DNA from: Bacteroidota bacterium
GTDB lineage: Bacteria; Bacteroidota; Bacteroidia; B-17B0; Aurantibacillaceae
DNA length: 64,000 bases
Direction of reading: 5' to 3'
Assembly: GCA_029237825.1 (NCBI GenBank)
Contig: JAQZBQ010000002.1
Span: 434,001-498,000 of the forward strand
Shown: piece by piece, positions 1-6,088 of the stretch
Layout of the letters: each line of letters begins with the position of its first letter
How positions within the stretch are numbered: the stretch's first letter is position 1
Position numbers and translations under genes: made by a program
Notes under the pieces: generated by a model
Told to the model about the DNA's origin: nothing
Database searches by the model: none
The model's input: the letters and a program-made list of their open reading frames with translations, nothing else

Positions 1-1294
1 TTTTTTCGAAATATTCTTTCTGTATTCCGATCCCGTTGTCTTTTACAGTAAACTCATAATAATCCTTTAAGTCACGTGATTTAATAACGATTTTTGGATG
101 TTCACTCTGATTGTATTTAACCGCGTTGGCAATGAGGTTTGAGAACACCTGTTCAATATGGAGTTTCTCAGTGGTGATAAATGGCATTACTCCATCAATT
201 TGAACAGTAAATTCTTTAGGAACAATCAGGTCGATGACTTCACGAACGAGTTTTAAAACATCAACTGTTTCTGCTCCTTTTTGAACTTTGCCTACTTTGG
301 CATATTCCAGTAACCCATTGATCATATTCTCCAGGCGTGCAGTTCTGCTGATAATCAGGTTTAGGTTTTTTTTAATTTCAGGCGAAATTTCAACTTCAAG
401 GTCTTCTTCCATCCAAAGTACAATGTTGTTAATTCCTCTCAAAGGGGTTTTTAAATCATGTGAAACGACATAGGCAAACTGGTCGAGTTCCTTGTTTTTC
501 TTGGTTAATTCATTAAAGGTTTTTTTCAGCGTCATCGACATTTTATTCAATGCAAACGACAAACGGTTTAATTCATCATTTTTATGATCACTTATTTCTT
601 TAAAATCTCCGGTTGATATTTCTTCTGCCAGTGATACCATATTCGAAATCCGTCGGGTAATCATATTAATGAAGTACGTGCCAAATAGTAATGCTAGTAA
701 GATTGATAAAATAGTAACGGTTAACGTAATGGTATTGGTGGTTACCACCGATTTTTGAAGTGCGATTTTACGTTCCTGCCGTAACTGGTATTCGTAATTG
801 TCAAAGGTTTTAAAGATCTCTTTAATTTTATCATTTAATTTCTTGCCAACTTCCATCCGCAACTTTGTTTCAAACAATTCAATATACTTTGCGTTTGCCT
901 CAGGCAACGTATCCAGTTTGGTAGAAATAAGTGAATTGGCATATTTCACCCATTTTAAATGAATGGTAACGATAGAATCTAAACGTTGTCTTTGGGGAAG
1001 CGTTGACTGAAGCGCTTGTTGTTGGGCAATGATCAGTGGAACGGTTTGTAACCCTTCGTAAAAGGGGCTGAGAAAAACTTCCTGACCGGTTAGTAAAAAC
1101 CCACGGAACCCACTTTGCATCTCAATAATATTTTTGTGCAGCATGTTGGAATTCCTGATAACTGCCTCCGAATTATTAAGGTATGTGGTGTTTTTTTCAA
1201 TATTAGCCGACAGCCTTTTATTAACGATAAAGTCTATCAGGAAAACCAATGTTAATACCGAAAATCCAATAAGTAACTGCGCTCGAATTGACAT
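1..1294 (-). CDS. CHASE3-type membrane sensor histidine kinase (3' end cut by window edge)
   Basis: The reading frame starts at an ATG (complement of 1292-1294) and runs off the window start, so 431 residues are visible and the end of the ATPase domain is missing. There is an N-terminal membrane helix (about residues 6-26), then a periplasmic region with the CHASE3 signature QSGFRGFLLTG near residue 60, and a second helix around 183-208. A HAMP-like linker follows, then a HisKA H-box SHDLKTPLRG with the phospho-acceptor His at about 279, an N-box FSNLIANAVKYN and a G1 box KDNGIGI. CHASE3 ligands are generally unknown. It lies downstream of and co-directional with the Crp/Fnr gene, 112 bases away. 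No response regulator is visible. Confidence 0.9.
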   Translation of the reverse strand, partial: MSIRAQLLIGFSVLTLVFLIDFIVNKRLSANIEKNTTYLNNSEAVIRNSNMLHKNIIEMQSGFRGFLLTGQEVFLSPFYEGLQTVPLIIAQQQALQSTLPQRQRLDSIVTIHLKWVKYANSLISTKLDTLPEANAKYIELFETKLRMEVGKKLNDKIKEIFKTFDNYEYQLRQERKIALQKSVVTTNTITLTVTILSILLALLFGTYFINMITRRISNMVSLAEEISTGDFKEISDHKNDELNRLSFALNKMSMTLKKTFNELTKKNKELDQFAYVVSHDLKTPLRGINNIVLWMEEDLEVEISPEIKKNLNLIISRTARLENMINGLLEYAKVGKVQKGAETVDVLKLVREVIDLIVPKEFTVQIDGVMPFITTEKLHIEQVFSNLIANAVKYNQSEHPKIVIKSRDLKDYYEFTVKDNGIGIQKEYFEK

Positions 1295-1406: not shown

Positions 1407-2099
1407 TCAGATATTTTGAACCATTTCAACAAGCGTTTGCCATTTTAGGATGGTAATTTTTGTTCCCTTAGTGGTTATAATATTTTCATCTTTAAACGTT
1501 CTCAGCATTCGTACTAAAGTTTCTTTGGCTGTTCCTACGAAACCGGCAAAGTCATCGCGGTTAATTGTTATAAATACATTTTTAGTATCATCGTTCCGTT
1601 GGTAAACTTTATGGAGGATTAAGAGGCTTAGGGCTACGCGATCTTTTACGCTTTGCTGGGAGAACACCGTCATTTTGTTTACCCACACCGAAAATTCTTT
1701 GGAAAGGTTGATGGTTAATTCTTTTGCTAGTGAGGAAGAATGTAAAAAGAGTTTCAGGAAATGTTCCTTTGGCAGGAATGATACAACAACGGAATCCATT
1801 GCAACTGCGGAAACCGGATGCGGCTCATCTGCAAGCAAAGGACGGTATCCAAAATAATCTCCTTTTTTATATATGTAAACAATGCTTTCTTTTCCATCTG
1901 CATTGGTTTGAAATATTTTTACCTTTCCTTTTTTTAGAATATAAATACCCTTGGAAAGCGTTTCTTCTTTAAACAGGATTTCGTTTTTAGCAAACTCTTT
2001 CCGGATCAAATTACTTTTAACGGTAGCGGCTTCCCTGTCTGAAAGCGAATCAAATAAGGACGATGATTTTAAATGGTATTTTTCAATATTAAAATTCAT
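1407..2099 (-). CDS. Crp/Fnr family transcriptional regulator
   Basis: The 230-residue protein has a cyclic-nucleotide-binding-fold sensor (about residues 15-135), a dimerisation helix and a C-terminal winged helix-turn-helix at about 180-200. The recognition helix carries E193-T-L-V-R197, the E..R pair that in the Fnr branch reads TTGA half-sites (established for Fnr). The protein contains no cysteine, so it cannot hold an Fnr-type Fe-S cluster; a heme, a nucleotide or no ligand is possible. A perfect Fnr-like palindrome is centred 41 bases upstream of its start codon, which suggests autoregulation (inference). The length is normal for the family. Confidence 0.93.
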   Translation of the reverse strand: MNFNIEKYHLKSSSLFDSLSDREAATVKSNLIRKEFAKNEILFKEETLSKGIYILKKGKVKIFQTNADGKESIVYIYKKGDYFGYRPLLADEPHPVSAVAMDSVVVSFLPKEHFLKLFLHSSSLAKELTINLSKEFSVWVNKMTVFSQQSVKDRVALSLLILHKVYQRNDDTKNVFITINRDDFAGFVGTAKETLVRMLRTFKDENIITTKGTKITILKWQTLVEMVQNI

Positions 2100-2129
2100 T
2101 GTTGTAAAATATCATTTTTTGACTGGGAC

Positions 2130-2151
2130 AAAATTGACAATTGTCAATTTT
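2130..2151. promoter_or_regulatory. 22-bp perfect palindrome, Fnr/Crp-type operator
   Basis: A perfect 22-base dyad with core ATTGACAATTGTCAAT, flanked by AAA and TTT. The half-site TTGAC-N4-GTCAA matches the Fnr/Dnr-type layout TTGAN-N4-NTCAA. It sits between the Crp/Fnr start codon (2099) and a rightward -7 element at 2170-2177. If transcription starts near 2182, the dyad centre falls at about -41.5, the classical class II activator position. The sequence is seen directly; binding by the adjacent regulator is inference. Confidence 0.75.
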
Positions 2152-2169
2152 CATTTTTACACGGGTATT

Positions 2170-2177
2170 TATATTTG
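2170..2177 (+). promoter_or_regulatory. Bacteroidota -7 promoter element TATATTTG
   Basis: Exact match to TAnnTTTG, about 29 bases right of the centre of the 22-bp palindrome. No good TTG lies at the usual -33 distance, which fits an activator-dependent promoter. The predicted start near 2182-2184 is followed within 25 bases by a terminator hairpin. Confidence 0.55.
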
Positions 2178-2182
2178 TAACG

Positions 2183-2240
2183 TAATACTTTAGTTTGTTA
2201 GGGAAGCCTGTTGATTTGTAGCGAATCAGCAGGCTTTTGC
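2183..2240 (+). ncRNA. Candidate short regulator-controlled RNA ending in an intrinsic terminator
   Basis: Between the promoter at 2170-2177 and the hairpin at 2206-2234 there is no ATG-initiated frame, so the predicted 55-60 base transcript would be non-coding. It could be a small RNA or an attenuated leader of the unit starting at 2408. The limits come from the inferred start and the T-run after the hairpin. No homologous RNA family is recognised. Confidence 0.35.
2206..2240 (+). terminator. Intrinsic terminator hairpin
   Basis: Arms 2206-2216 and 2224-2234 form an 11-bp stem (GCCTG..GATT with AATC..CAGGC, one G-U pair) around a 7-base loop. The run TTTTGCTTTT follows on the plus strand. 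No plus-strand gene lies upstream, so it must end a short RNA or act as an attenuator. Confidence 0.6.
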
Positions 2241-2344
2241 TTTTGGTACAGGACGTATGAATGTACTATGTTTAATAATCTTGTTTGGTGAAAAAATGTT
2301 AAACATCTACCGAAGTCGCTGTTGAAACTTATACATTATCAAGA

Positions 2345-2360
2345 ATTGATAATTGTCAAT
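2345..2360. promoter_or_regulatory. Second Fnr/Crp-type box
   Basis: ATTGATAATTGTCAAT matches the core of the 22-bp palindrome at 15 of 16 positions. It lies 48 bases upstream of the first small ORF (2408) of the rightward unit. A weak -7-like stretch follows at about 2383-2399. Its role as an activator site of the small-ORF/nitrilase/ClC unit is inferred from the spacing and the similarity to the first site. Confidence 0.6.
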
Positions 2361-2407
2361 GGAATAATGCAGGAGTCTTCTTTAATTGCATTATACTTTC
2401 AATTAAC

Positions 2408-2587
2408 ATGAATCCTATGAACCAACATAAAAGCAGTAGCCAAAGGATACTTTTCTTGCACAGAGTTAGGAACTGGATTAAACGCATTCCGCTAACTCAT
2501 TTTCTATTTGAAAATGGTTTAAACGTAAAGAATGATTTCACGCATGAATTTATTAAATCACTTCATGAATACCGGTACATAAAGTAA
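2408..2587 (+). CDS. Small basic protein of unknown function
   Basis: An ATG-initiated frame of 59 codons, too short for many gene finders, with an alternative ATG at 2417. The product is rich in Arg, Lys and His, has no clear membrane helix and is not recognised. Support comes from context: it begins just after the second Fnr-type box, its stop is 4 bases before the next small ORF, and the downstream genes run the same way with tight spacing. It could also be a leader peptide. Confidence 0.45.
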   Translation: MNPMNQHKSSSQRILFLHRVRNWIKRIPLTHFLFENGLNVKNDFTHEFIKSLHEYRYIK

Positions 2588-2591
2588 CACT

Positions 2592-2744
2592 ATGGCATTA
2601 CAATTTTTTTCATTATTAGGAGTGATTTTTACAATTTCGCTGATCCTTACAATAGTCATCGCATTTGCAATGCTTATATTTAGATTCTTTATCTTTCCGA
2701 GAAGGAACTCCCAAAGAGTAAATCGTCGTTATGGCAACCAGTGA
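2592..2744 (+). CDS. Small single-span membrane protein
   Basis: A 50-residue product whose residues 5-34 are almost purely hydrophobic (one long transmembrane helix), followed by a basic tail with RRNSQRVNRR. Under the positive-inside rule the tail would be cytoplasmic. Its last 14 bases overlap the start of the GNAT-nitrilase gene (2731) in another frame, a typical arrangement for translational coupling. The family is not recognised. It could be an accessory subunit of the nitrilase or of the ClC channel; that is speculation. Confidence 0.5.
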   Translation: MALQFFSLLGVIFTISLILTIVIAFAMLIFRFFIFPRRNSQRVNRRYGNQ

Positions 2745-4275
2745 TATTACAAAAAAGATTAAGTTACGTAAAATTGTAAAAGACGACTATGCGCAGATAA
2801 CTGCAATCCAAAAACTTTGTTTTCCTGGTATGTTACCCTGGAGTGAAACTCAGTTTCAAAACCTGCTAACTTATTTTCCGGAAGGTCAGATTTGCATTCA
2901 ATACGGAAAAAAGATTATTGCATCTTCCTCGTCACTTATTTTGCACTTTGATAATTACAGTGAAACGTCACCCTGGAAAGAGCTAACCGATAATGGGAAC
3001 ATTACCAACCATGATTCTTATGGCGATACGCTTTACGGCATGGAAATCATGGTTCATCCGAGTTATCAGGGCATGAAGCTTTCGCGCAGGTTGTATGATG
3101 CGCGAAAGGAACTGGCAAAAAAATTCAATTTAAAAAGGATCATCATTGGTGGCCGCCTTCCAAATTTTCATAAATATTCCTCAGCCCTTTCCATTGATGA
3201 ATTTGTGGAGAAGGTATTAAACAGGAGTTTATATGATCCTGTTCTCACAGCACAATTATCCAACGGGTTCACTCTGAAACGTGTTTTGCCAAATTATTTA
3301 CCCAGCGATACTGAATCGGGAGGTTATGCCACGCTCCTGGAATGGGTTAATTACAATCATGAAACTAAAAAGTATGTGAGCTCTCAGGCCCATTATGTGC
3401 GGGTAAGCGCCATACAATATCAGATGCGCCCAATTGCCTCGTTCGAAGAGTTTGCCAAACACTGCGAATTTTTCGTGGATACGTCCTCCGATTACCGTAG
3501 CGATTTTGTAGTTTTTCCTGAGATGATCACATTGCAACTGTTATCATTCTTGCCCAAGCTTCGTCCTGGTGAGGCTGTCAGGCAACTCAGCGCATACACT
3601 TCCCAATATGAAGAGTTGTTTACGCGATTGGCAATCAAATACAACATTAATATCATTGCCGGTTCACATTTTAATGTGGAAAATGATCAGTTATACAACA
3701 TTTCCTATTTATTCAGGCGGGATGGAACAATGGAGAAGCAGTATAAAATTCATATTCCTTCTTCCGAGCGAAAATGGTGGGGCGTTCAAAACGGGGATAA
3801 AGTAAAGATCTTTAATACAGACAAAGGGAAAATTGCCATATTGATTTGCTATGATATTGAGTTTCCTGAACTCGCCCGTATTGCGGTAAGTAAAGGGGCA
3901 AAAATTATTTTTGTTCCATTTAATACAGACGACCGAAGAAGTTATTTGCGTGTGAGGTATTGTTCCCAGGCACGAGCGGTAGAAAATCAGGTGTACGTTA
4001 TCATTACAGGCTGTGTAGGTAATCTTCCCGATGTTGAAAATATGGATGTTCATTTTTCACAATCCGCGATTTTCACACCCTCCGATGTAGAATTTCACAG
4101 AGAGGCGATTGCTTCGGAAGCTACTCCCAACGCTGAAACATTGATCTACCAGGATCTTGATCTTAATTTGCTAAAGCGAAACCGGGAAATGGGTTCAGAG
4201 CAAACATGGAACGATCGTTCGCAGGGATTTTATACGCTCACTTACCAGGAAGACGGAATAACTAAAGAAGTCTGA
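2731..4275 (+). CDS. Bifunctional GNAT acetyltransferase / carbon-nitrogen hydrolase fusion
   Basis: The 514-residue protein fuses an N-terminal GNAT domain (residues about 10-210, acetyl-CoA loop near VHPSYQGMKLSRR at 109-120) to a nitrilase-superfamily domain (about 223-500). The nitrilase triad is visible: Glu264 in FPE, Lys339 in YKIH, and Cys373 in LICYD. Such fusions are known in Bacteroidota and other bacteria, but their substrate is unsettled; an amidase acting together with N-acylation is plausible. It is the third ORF of a rightward unit and overlaps the small membrane protein before it. Cytoplasmic, with no signal peptide. Confidence 0.9.
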   Translation: MATSDITKKIKLRKIVKDDYAQITAIQKLCFPGMLPWSETQFQNLLTYFPEGQICIQYGKKIIASSSSLILHFDNYSETSPWKELTDNGNITNHDSYGDTLYGMEIMVHPSYQGMKLSRRLYDARKELAKKFNLKRIIIGGRLPNFHKYSSALSIDEFVEKVLNRSLYDPVLTAQLSNGFTLKRVLPNYLPSDTESGGYATLLEWVNYNHETKKYVSSQAHYVRVSAIQYQMRPIASFEEFAKHCEFFVDTSSDYRSDFVVFPEMITLQLLSFLPKLRPGEAVRQLSAYTSQYEELFTRLAIKYNINIIAGSHFNVENDQLYNISYLFRRDGTMEKQYKIHIPSSERKWWGVQNGDKVKIFNTDKGKIAILICYDIEFPELARIAVSKGAKIIFVPFNTDDRRSYLRVRYCSQARAVENQVYVIITGCVGNLPDVENMDVHFSQSAIFTPSDVEFHREAIASEATPNAETLIYQDLDLNLLKRNREMGSEQTWNDRSQGFYTLTYQEDGITKEV

Positions 4276-4309: not shown

Positions 4310-6088
4310 ATGCGCGTTAAGAAACTAAATGTAATTGAAAAGTTTGTCAGTTGGATTCACGACCGGACTTCGGAAAAGCAGTTCCTTATTTTTTCAAGCA
4401 TTCTGGTTGGAATAAGCGCAGGCATTGCCGCAGTTATTCTGAAGACGTTTGTATTTTCAATCAGGCATTACCTGATTGAAAATATATTGCTTAAGTATCA
4501 CTTTCGGTATTTGTACCTAATCTTACCTCTAATTGGTATTGGATTAACTGCGCTTATTATCAGAATTTTTTTTAAAGACCGGTTTTTCAAAGGCACGAGT
4601 TTCATTCTGTTTTCCATTGCTAAAAAAAGTAGCTTTTTGCCTTTTCACCAAATGTATTCCCATTTAATCACAAGCGGATTGACAGTGGGCTTTGGTGGAT
4701 CCGCCGGTCTTGAATCGCCCATTGTGAGTACGGGTTCGGCAATAGGATCTAACTTTGCACGCACGTATAAATTAACGTATAAGGAAAGAACTTTACTCTT
4801 AGCCGCCGGAGCAGCCGGAGGAGTTGCCGGGGCTTTCAATGCCCCTATTGCAGGGGTATTATTTGCTCTGGAAGTTATTTTAATTGATATTTCATTAGGT
4901 GCGTTTATTCCCTTATTAATTGCTGCTGCCTCCGGCGCATTGTTATCCAAAATAATATTAAACGAAGAAAGTTTACTCTTCTTTAAGCTTCAGCAACCTT
5001 TTAATTACTATAATCTTCCCTTTTACCTCTTGCTTGGCATTTTTGCTGGTTTATCATCTTTGTATTACATTAATTTTTTTGAAAAGGTTGAGCGATATTT
5101 TTCCAGGTTTGAATCGCCTTTTGCCAAATGGCTAATTGGCGGATTGGCATTGGCCTTTTTGTTTGCGTTATTTCCTTCACTTTTTGGTGAAGGCTATGAA
5201 AGTATCAAAGCACTTTCAGAATACCGGGTAGATGACCTGTTTGAAAACAGCCTTCTTTCAAATTTAATTTTTAACCGGTGGATTTTGCTTGCGTTGCTAA
5301 TTATTACATTGTTATTAAAAGCTGTTGCTGCAGGCATAACACTTGGTAGTGGCGGTAATGGTGGAAATTTTGCACCTTCATTGTTTGTAGGTGCATATGT
5401 CGGTTTTGTGTTTGCCTATTTTCTGAAGTTAATAGGATTTGTTGACGTGCCGGTTAATAATTTTACCATTGTGGCGATGGCCGGCGTTTTGAGCGGAGTT
5501 TTCCATGCACCGTTAACCGGCATATTCCTTATTGCTGAAATCACCGGTGGGTATGAATTAATTTTACCACTCATGATTGTTTCATCAATCAGTTATATCA
5601 TCGTAAAATTTTTTCATCCTCAGTCGCTCGATGTTAGAAAACTCAGAGAGCGTGGCGCAGTTATTTCTGAAGATAGGGATGAAAGTATTTTAGGTAGAAT
5701 TGATACACTGCAGTTAATTGAAACTGATTTTGCTGCTATTCATTACAAGTCAAGTTTAAGGAAAATAGTAGAAACGATTAAACACACCCGAAGGAATATT
5801 TTTCCGGTGATTAAGAAGGATAACAAGCTTCTTGGAATAATTTACCTGGATCATATAAAAGAAGAAATGTTTAATCCTGACTTATACGATGTGGTTACCG
5901 CGAAAGAAGTAATGCGTAAGGCCAGGACAGTTATCGATGTGAAAGAAGATATTTTCTCCATTATGGAAAAATTTGAAAAATCCGGACAATGGAACCTTCC
6001 TGTTGTGGATAACGGAATGTATATCGGCTTTTTATCAAAGTCGAGCATATTAAATAAGTACCGCCAGGAACTATTAGTTACCTTATAA
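4310..6088 (+). CDS. ClC-family chloride channel/transporter with C-terminal CBS pair
   Basis: The 592-residue membrane protein has about ten hydrophobic segments followed by two CBS domains (about 460-590). The ClC filter motifs are present in divergent form: GGSAGLESP (129-137), in which Glu135 occupies the gating-glutamate position, and GGNFAPS (351-357). The helix stretch AAGGVAGAFNAPIAG (168-182) is typical. CBS domains usually bind adenine nucleotides, so gating by energy state is likely. Sequence alone does not decide channel versus H+/Cl- exchanger. It follows the nitrilase fusion by 34 bases in the same direction. Confidence 0.93.
   Translation: MRVKKLNVIEKFVSWIHDRTSEKQFLIFSSILVGISAGIAAVILKTFVFSIRHYLIENILLKYHFRYLYLILPLIGIGLTALIIRIFFKDRFFKGTSFILFSIAKKSSFLPFHQMYSHLITSGLTVGFGGSAGLESPIVSTGSAIGSNFARTYKLTYKERTLLLAAGAAGGVAGAFNAPIAGVLFALEVILIDISLGAFIPLLIAAASGALLSKIILNEESLLFFKLQQPFNYYNLPFYLLLGIFAGLSSLYYINFFEKVERYFSRFESPFAKWLIGGLALAFLFALFPSLFGEGYESIKALSEYRVDDLFENSLLSNLIFNRWILLALLIITLLLKAVAAGITLGSGGNGGNFAPSLFVGAYVGFVFAYFLKLIGFVDVPVNNFTIVAMAGVLSGVFHAPLTGIFLIAEITGGYELILPLMIVSSISYIIVKFFHPQSLDVRKLRERGAVISEDRDESILGRIDTLQLIETDFAAIHYKSSLRKIVETIKHTRRNIFPVIKKDNKLLGIIYLDHIKEEMFNPDLYDVVTAKEVMRKARTVIDVKEDIFSIMEKFEKSGQWNLPVVDNGMYIGFLSKSSILNKYRQELLVTL

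Follow-up and report, generated by a model that had tools for sequence, protein, structure and literature searches.

A Crp/Fnr-family regulator gene and a promoter-like sequence pointing away from it are separated by a 22-bp perfect palindrome in the window, which is the whole stretch of 64,000 nucleotides that was analyzed. The question raised by this locus was whether the palindrome serves the adjacent regulator, and what the promoter that faces away from the regulator gene produces. The reading of site and promoter in the original prediction was supported, whereas it had missed a small RNA (sRNA) with its terminator, a promoter directed toward the regulator gene, and a second dyad. Our whole model, to which we give a probability of about 0.7, comprises an operator of the regulator, back-to-back class II promoters, an sRNA of approximately 63 nt, and a second operator for the next operon (Table 1). 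All evidence was comparative, and the genomes compared were mostly metagenome assemblies.

Table 1. Features predicted around the palindrome, with positions in the window
Feature	Position	Strand	Basis or remark
Crp/Fnr-family regulator, 230 aa, no Cys, recognition helix GTAKETLVR (E193, R197)	1407–2099	−	PF00027 and PF13545
Weak −7 box toward regulator, TATTTTAC	2104–2111	−	22 nt from dyad core; autoregulation predicted
Palindrome, predicted operator of regulator	2130–2151	none	Core TTGACAATTGTCAA at 2134–2147; centre at −41.5 relative to predicted sRNA start
−7 box TATATTTG (TAnnTTTG)	2170–2177	+	22 nt from dyad core
Predicted sRNA, ~63 nt: unpaired leader 2182–2201 (~20 nt) and terminator	2182–2244	+	Fold, covariance model
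Intrinsic terminator hairpin, 17 pairs, then GCTTTT	2202–2238	+	Fold, covariation, terminator counts
Second dyad, TTGATAATTGTCAA	2346–2359	none	Conserved before divergent operon in relatives
−7 box of predicted second class II promoter, TTAATTGC	2382–2389	+	Exactly 22 nt from second dyad; relatives mostly TTACTTGC
59-aa ORF, first of predicted second transcript	2408–2587	+	No family
50-aa single-span membrane ORF	2592–2744	+	Similar small ORFs after unit in L077 and L139 (by eye)
GNAT acetyltransferase–carbon-nitrogen hydrolase fusion	2731–4275	+	Pfam; homologues near regulator in L036, L041, and L047
ClC chloride channel with CBS domains	4310–6088	+	Pfam; recurrent divergent neighbour, 10 members in compared loci

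The palindrome and its conservation with the regulator

The palindrome reads AAAATTGACAA/TTGTCAATTTT (full string, AAAATTGACAATTGTCAATTTT), and re-reading of the sequence confirmed the exact 22-bp symmetry described earlier. It also lies near the start codon of the regulator, as had been stated, with 30 bases separating it from the ATG at 2097–2099. No other palindrome of at least 18 bp occurred in the window. When 64-kb sequences were simulated with a first-order Markov model, 7 of 100 contained a 22-bp palindrome; taken alone, the bare palindrome is of only modest surprise value. The loose motif TTGAY-N4-RTCAA showed no clear enrichment in the window or genome-wide (19 copies versus 14 in the control). 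The strict motif TTGAYAWWTRTCAA was present in two copies in the 3.55-Mb genome (control, 0), at window positions 2134 and 2346, and a search for a TTGA-N6-TCAA dyad with TANNTTYG at 21–23 nt gave the window site as its single genome match.

Orthologues of the regulator were compared in two sets: 13 close orthologues from genome contigs (62–73% identical), and others from whole genomes (46–74%). The TTGAY-N4-RTCAA dyad upstream of the regulator was kept in 13/13 close orthologues, and in 11 of these a −7 box with at least five of six matches pointed away from the regulator at 21–22 nt. The two without such a box were L044 and L047, and L047 had RNA units elsewhere in the locus. The arrangement of dyad and box was retained in most of the more distant orthologues, the exceptions being L083, which had no dyad, and L010, which had an operon-side dyad only. 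Eight less closely related Crp/Fnr paralogues (31–42% identical; L011–L016, L018, and L031) lacked the motif in their loci. The check proposed in the original prediction, conservation of the palindrome with the regulator in relatives, was thus passed, with the dyad, the box spacing, and the E193/R197 helix all kept. Because the position and spacing of the dyad are conserved in relatives, a role beyond chance is indicated, and on this comparison the palindrome is the conserved operator to which the adjacent Crp/Fnr-type regulator is predicted to bind.

The regulator scored 83.4 bits with PF00027 (cut-off 27.5) and 45.4 bits with PF13545 (cut-off 27), which placed it in the Crp/Fnr superfamily. 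Its association with a TTGA-N6-TCAA-type operator, seen from linkage and from the upstream regions of orthologues, agreed with this placement. In an alignment of 23 orthologues, E193, R197, G84, R86, and P95 were invariant and the helix GTAKETLVR was almost unchanged, in line with the earlier assignment of E193/R197 to the recognition helix; this pair occurs in Fnr-type readers of TTGA. The earlier statement that the protein lacks cysteine and therefore an Fnr-type Fe-S cluster also proved correct: there is no cysteine in the window regulator and there are 0–3 in each of the 23 orthologues, so that a four-cysteine Fe-S cluster is excluded. The protein is not an Fnr proper, since it lacks the four cysteines for a 4Fe-4S cluster, and it scored 68.7 bits with PRK11161 against a cut-off of 228. 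The canonical cAMP phosphate-binding cassette is FGE...R-x-A. The ligand loop of the regulator, FGYRPLLADEPHPVSA, does not have this cassette of Crp, and PRK11753 gave 62 bits against a cut-off of 266. None of the curated NCBIfam models reached its cut-off on the regulator. Like the superfamily members Fnr, FixK, Crp, HcpR, and DNR, the regulator combines cNMP_binding and HTH_Crp_2 domains, an E-x-x-x-R helix, and a TTGA-N6-TCAA operator; unlike the named members, it reaches no NCBIfam cut-off, has a loop conserved in orthologues as GYRPLL-x-x-x-PHPVSA, and has an apparently local regulon.

The distribution of the regulator was patchy, with 12 of 395 class genomes giving a match below E 1e-60 and none of 19 same-genus relatives having a close copy; horizontal transfer or repeated loss is therefore likely. 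A CHASE3-HAMP-HisKA histidine kinase adjoins the regulator in the window (1–1292, minus strand, cut by the window edge). L041 and L046 have homologues of this kinase adjacent to the regulator, L139 has one next to an extra RNA unit, and the kinase probably belongs to the signalling module of the regulator. The gene panD (aspartate 1-decarboxylase) recurrently adjoins the regulator (L035, L037, L041, L046, and L047).

Promoters on the two sides of the operator

In the transcription start map of Flavobacterium psychrophilum, the TAnnTTTG −7 box spans −12 to −5 (PMC9723704). With this published position, transcription from TATATTTG would start at 2182, so that the dyad centre, 2140.5, falls at −41.5, the value near which the original prediction had placed it. 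A class II activator position of the dyad is thus supported, with the start predicted from the box. Among 25 units compared, a box with at least five of six matches lay at a spacing of 22 nt in 20 units and of 21 nt in four, and in none at 14–20 or 23–32 nt; the count of 20/25 is somewhat optimistic because some units had been picked with the help of the −7 box. Pairwise identity over the 25 units was 86% in the dyad, 66% in the −7 box, 32% in the spacer, and 29% downstream.

On the regulator side, a TAnnnTT-type box at spacing 22 had at least four of six matches in 15 of the 25 units, and other spacings gave at most 5/25. This box stops a few bases ahead of the ATG in many relatives, and a transcript starting there would therefore be nearly leaderless. 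Because boxes lie on both sides at 22-nt spacing, the dyad appears to act as a class II switch in both directions.

A predicted small RNA with a covarying terminator hairpin

The product of the rightward promoter appears to be an undescribed non-coding sRNA of approximately 60–63 nt, and not a protein. The predicted RNA folded at −24.3 kcal/mol (z, −4.7), and both the minimum free energy and the centroid structures in the window were the terminator hairpin. The plan of the hairpin was common to the relatives, with differing stem sequences. In 10 aligned units, 97% of the pair cells were standard pairs and double changes were found in seven of the 10 pairs; the covariation score was 0.64, compared with 0.31 for shuffled alignments, and was reached by 0 of 500 shuffles, with slid registers far below. 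A terminator followed the promoter in 22 of 25 units, whereas 7 of 459 control segments had one. L080, L084, and L085 did not pass the strict terminator test, and looser hairpins were seen by eye in L084 and L085. At almost every locus, the hairpin and the next gene are separated by a second dyad that has a −7 box of its own, so that the product would be an sRNA rather than the mRNA of the neighbour.

A covariance model (R1) consisting of the dyad, box, leader, and stem, whose E-values are rough, gave 95 bits on the window unit, itself a seed member. Units outside the seed were recovered in L078 (69 bits), L077 (62 bits), L046 (71 bits, 276–386), and L047 (68 and 57 bits, 2198–2312 and 421–545). 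The surroundings of 29 other Crp/Fnr genes, 113 kb in total, gave no match (best E, 0.8). In 395 class genomes, matches below E 1e-6 occurred only at regulator loci, and across 17 whole genomes that encode the regulator, convincing matches lay almost exclusively at its locus. The main off-locus exception, on contig C46 of genome G451, combined a dyad with TATTTTTG after 22 nt and a hairpin, and adjoined a CHASE3 kinase similar in kind to the one beside the window regulator. A match at C8:55644 (46 bits, the second best in the genome of the window) was a GCCTGC terminator without a dyad and was rejected, as were, as units, other class-wide matches below approximately 48 bits without a dyad.

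Rfam gave no meaningful match in window positions 1900–2900, and in 15 relatives nothing at gathering score except RNase P elsewhere in L084. A peptide encoded by the RNA was considered and rejected: by reading, the window RNA has no ATG, and an eight-codon TTG frame was not kept in relatives. A literature search, largely without subscription papers, found no description of the sRNA or of the regulator–RNA pair. Two to four copies of the sRNA unit per regulator were present in L041 (units at 563, 2301, 2851, and 5556), L043, L046, and L047; such multi-copy loci had at least two leader subtypes, resembling sibling sRNAs. ORFs of 66–85 aa begin within or just past the hairpin in L037 and L078, where expression by read-through is possible. 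Three loci (window 2290–2304, L036, and L043) share a string like GAAAAAATGTTAAAC past the hairpin.

The second operator and the next operon

The second dyad precedes kamA, which we take to be lysine 2,3-aminomutase-like (Pfam Radical_SAM below cut-off), in most relatives, and trehalase is the divergent neighbour in L077. The trehalose, ClC, and kamA-type genes together give hints of osmotic or acid stress as the condition concerned. The small membrane ORFs after the unit in the window, L077, and L139 are approximately 40–50 aa long with a Lys/Arg-rich tail, and these loci are otherwise different.

Regulon, leader RNA, and alternative readings of the unit

A large direct regulon was considered and rejected: the loose dyad was not clearly enriched, and off-locus strict sites in relatives were mostly intragenic or without a −7 box at 22 nt. 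The direct regulon appears to be very small and confined to the regulator locus, which makes the sRNA a plausible route to other genes.

The leader was examined for signs of such a role. In L041, L046, and L047, 18–20 of 20 leader positions were identical, compared with 10–13 of 22 in the spacer; since the leader is kept while the spacer varies, the leader RNA itself seems to be under selection in these loci. A second leader subtype, with TTGGGTGATTAAATCTG in common, occurred in L041 and L047. Nine of 24 leaders contained CUUUUUCAU or UUUUCCAU, complementary to AUG with A-rich codons (shuffled mean, 0.4), a count to be read with the leaders not being independent. The window leader, GUAAUACUUUAGUUUGUUAGGG, has no CAU, that is, no anti-ATG motif. 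Pairing of the leader with the start of the regulator's own mRNA was no better than with shuffled leaders, and near-exact complements of the L041, L046, and L047 leaders in three whole genomes gave no shared target.

These data bear on whether the RNA has any function, and a functionless product, with the promoter–terminator pair acting as an operator decoy or as an insulator between two neighbouring operons, is the alternative that survives best, although we regard it as unlikely. It is consistent with the failure of the target searches, with stems that vary freely save for pairing, and with the low identity of leaders from distant loci (37%, against a background of 29%). The near identity of the L041, L046, and L047 leaders beside differing spacers, the shared second subtype, and the existence of extra unit copies argue instead for selection on the RNA.

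Simple autoregulation, by activation or repression, with the palindrome controlling the regulator gene only and the rightward promoter and hairpin incidental, is quite improbable. The closeness of the dyad to the regulator ATG and the weak regulator-ward box at 22 nt would fit it, and L010, L044, and L047 have a regulator-proximal dyad and no adjoining sRNA (the RNA unit beside the regulator was missing in L010, L044, and L083, and weak in L086). Of the two boxes, however, the rightward one is stronger and better conserved, and it is mostly followed by a terminator; in L043 and L046 the sRNA has its own dyad apart from the regulator-proximal dyad; and L041, L046, and L047 carry extra units away from the regulator.

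About equally improbable is an attenuator, in which the hairpin would terminate transcription conditionally within the 5′ leader of the downstream operon and no free sRNA end would form. Such an arrangement might be read from the hairpin's place between promoter and operon and from the ORFs at the hairpins of L037 and L078. Against it, nearly all loci have a second dyad with a −7 box at 22 nt between hairpin and operon, no alternative anti-terminator pairing was apparent beside the terminator fold, and the unit stays constant while the downstream gene varies (kamA, ClC, and trehalase). A chance palindrome without a role, which the simulated windows and the unenriched loose motif would allow, has a negligible probability, as the position and spacing of the site are kept in orthologues of several families.

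Proposed circuit

In the model of back-to-back promoters and an sRNA, a regulator dimer on the palindrome would touch RNA polymerase at both class II promoters, whose boxes each lie 22 nt from the dyad core. The stronger of the two, with TATATTTG and start 2182, would yield the non-coding RNA ending at the hairpin, and the weaker one faces the regulator gene itself. The second operator would switch on the next operon, which holds small ORFs, the GNAT–nitrilase fusion, and the ClC channel in the window and kamA in most relatives. The sRNA would be the regulator's likely reach to other genes. Sequence comparison shows the operator, spacing, boxes, covarying hairpin, and regulator linkage; from these we infer binding, activation, and transcription, and our suggestions on pairing targets and signal are speculative. 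Bacteroidota mRNAs lack Shine-Dalgarno sites (PMC6847099). Our favoured, speculative mode of action is start-codon masking, in which the U-rich leader would pair with A-rich start-codon regions. Tentatively, with the odds against it in this full form, the locus may represent a self-contained, patchy Bacteroidota module of a non-Fe-S Crp/Fnr regulator with a locus-only direct regulon and one to several co-encoded sRNAs that mask A-rich start codons.

Comparison with known systems and significance

To our knowledge, the transcriptional controller is known for few of the sRNAs described in Bacteroidota. Rfp18 and other sRNAs of F. psychrophilum are likewise Bacteroidota intergenic RNA candidates with predicted structure; unlike the window RNA, Rfp18 contains three or more stem-loops, and Fnr is absent from the main text of that paper (PMC9723704). 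The closest known system is FnrS, an sRNA of E. coli and other enterobacteria. PMC3032703, citing the E. coli work, describes E. coli FnrS as a short RNA that ends in an intrinsic terminator and has an FNR site centred at −41.5, and a gonococcal RNA named after fnrS as also terminator-ended. The locus in the window resembles FnrS in having a Crp/Fnr-family site at −41.5, here relative to a start predicted from the box, and a Rho-independent terminator. Unlike FnrS, the Bacteroidota RNA gave no Rfam FnrS match, is approximately 63 nt long with a single hairpin, adjoins its own regulator gene, and has a Bacteroidota sigma box; the regulator here lacks Fe-S ligands, and some genomes have several RNA copies. 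By the tests made, the predicted circuit is FnrS-like, and its candidate RNA is new and not a homologue of FnrS.

The regulator, operator, promoter, and RNA form one block of approximately 850 bp. Because this block is conserved across several families, Bacteroidota appear to have evolved an FnrS-like circuit independently, built on an unrelated RNA. With its small size, the block could be transferred to a laboratory Flavobacterium or Bacteroides, where its signal, binding, and targets would be testable.
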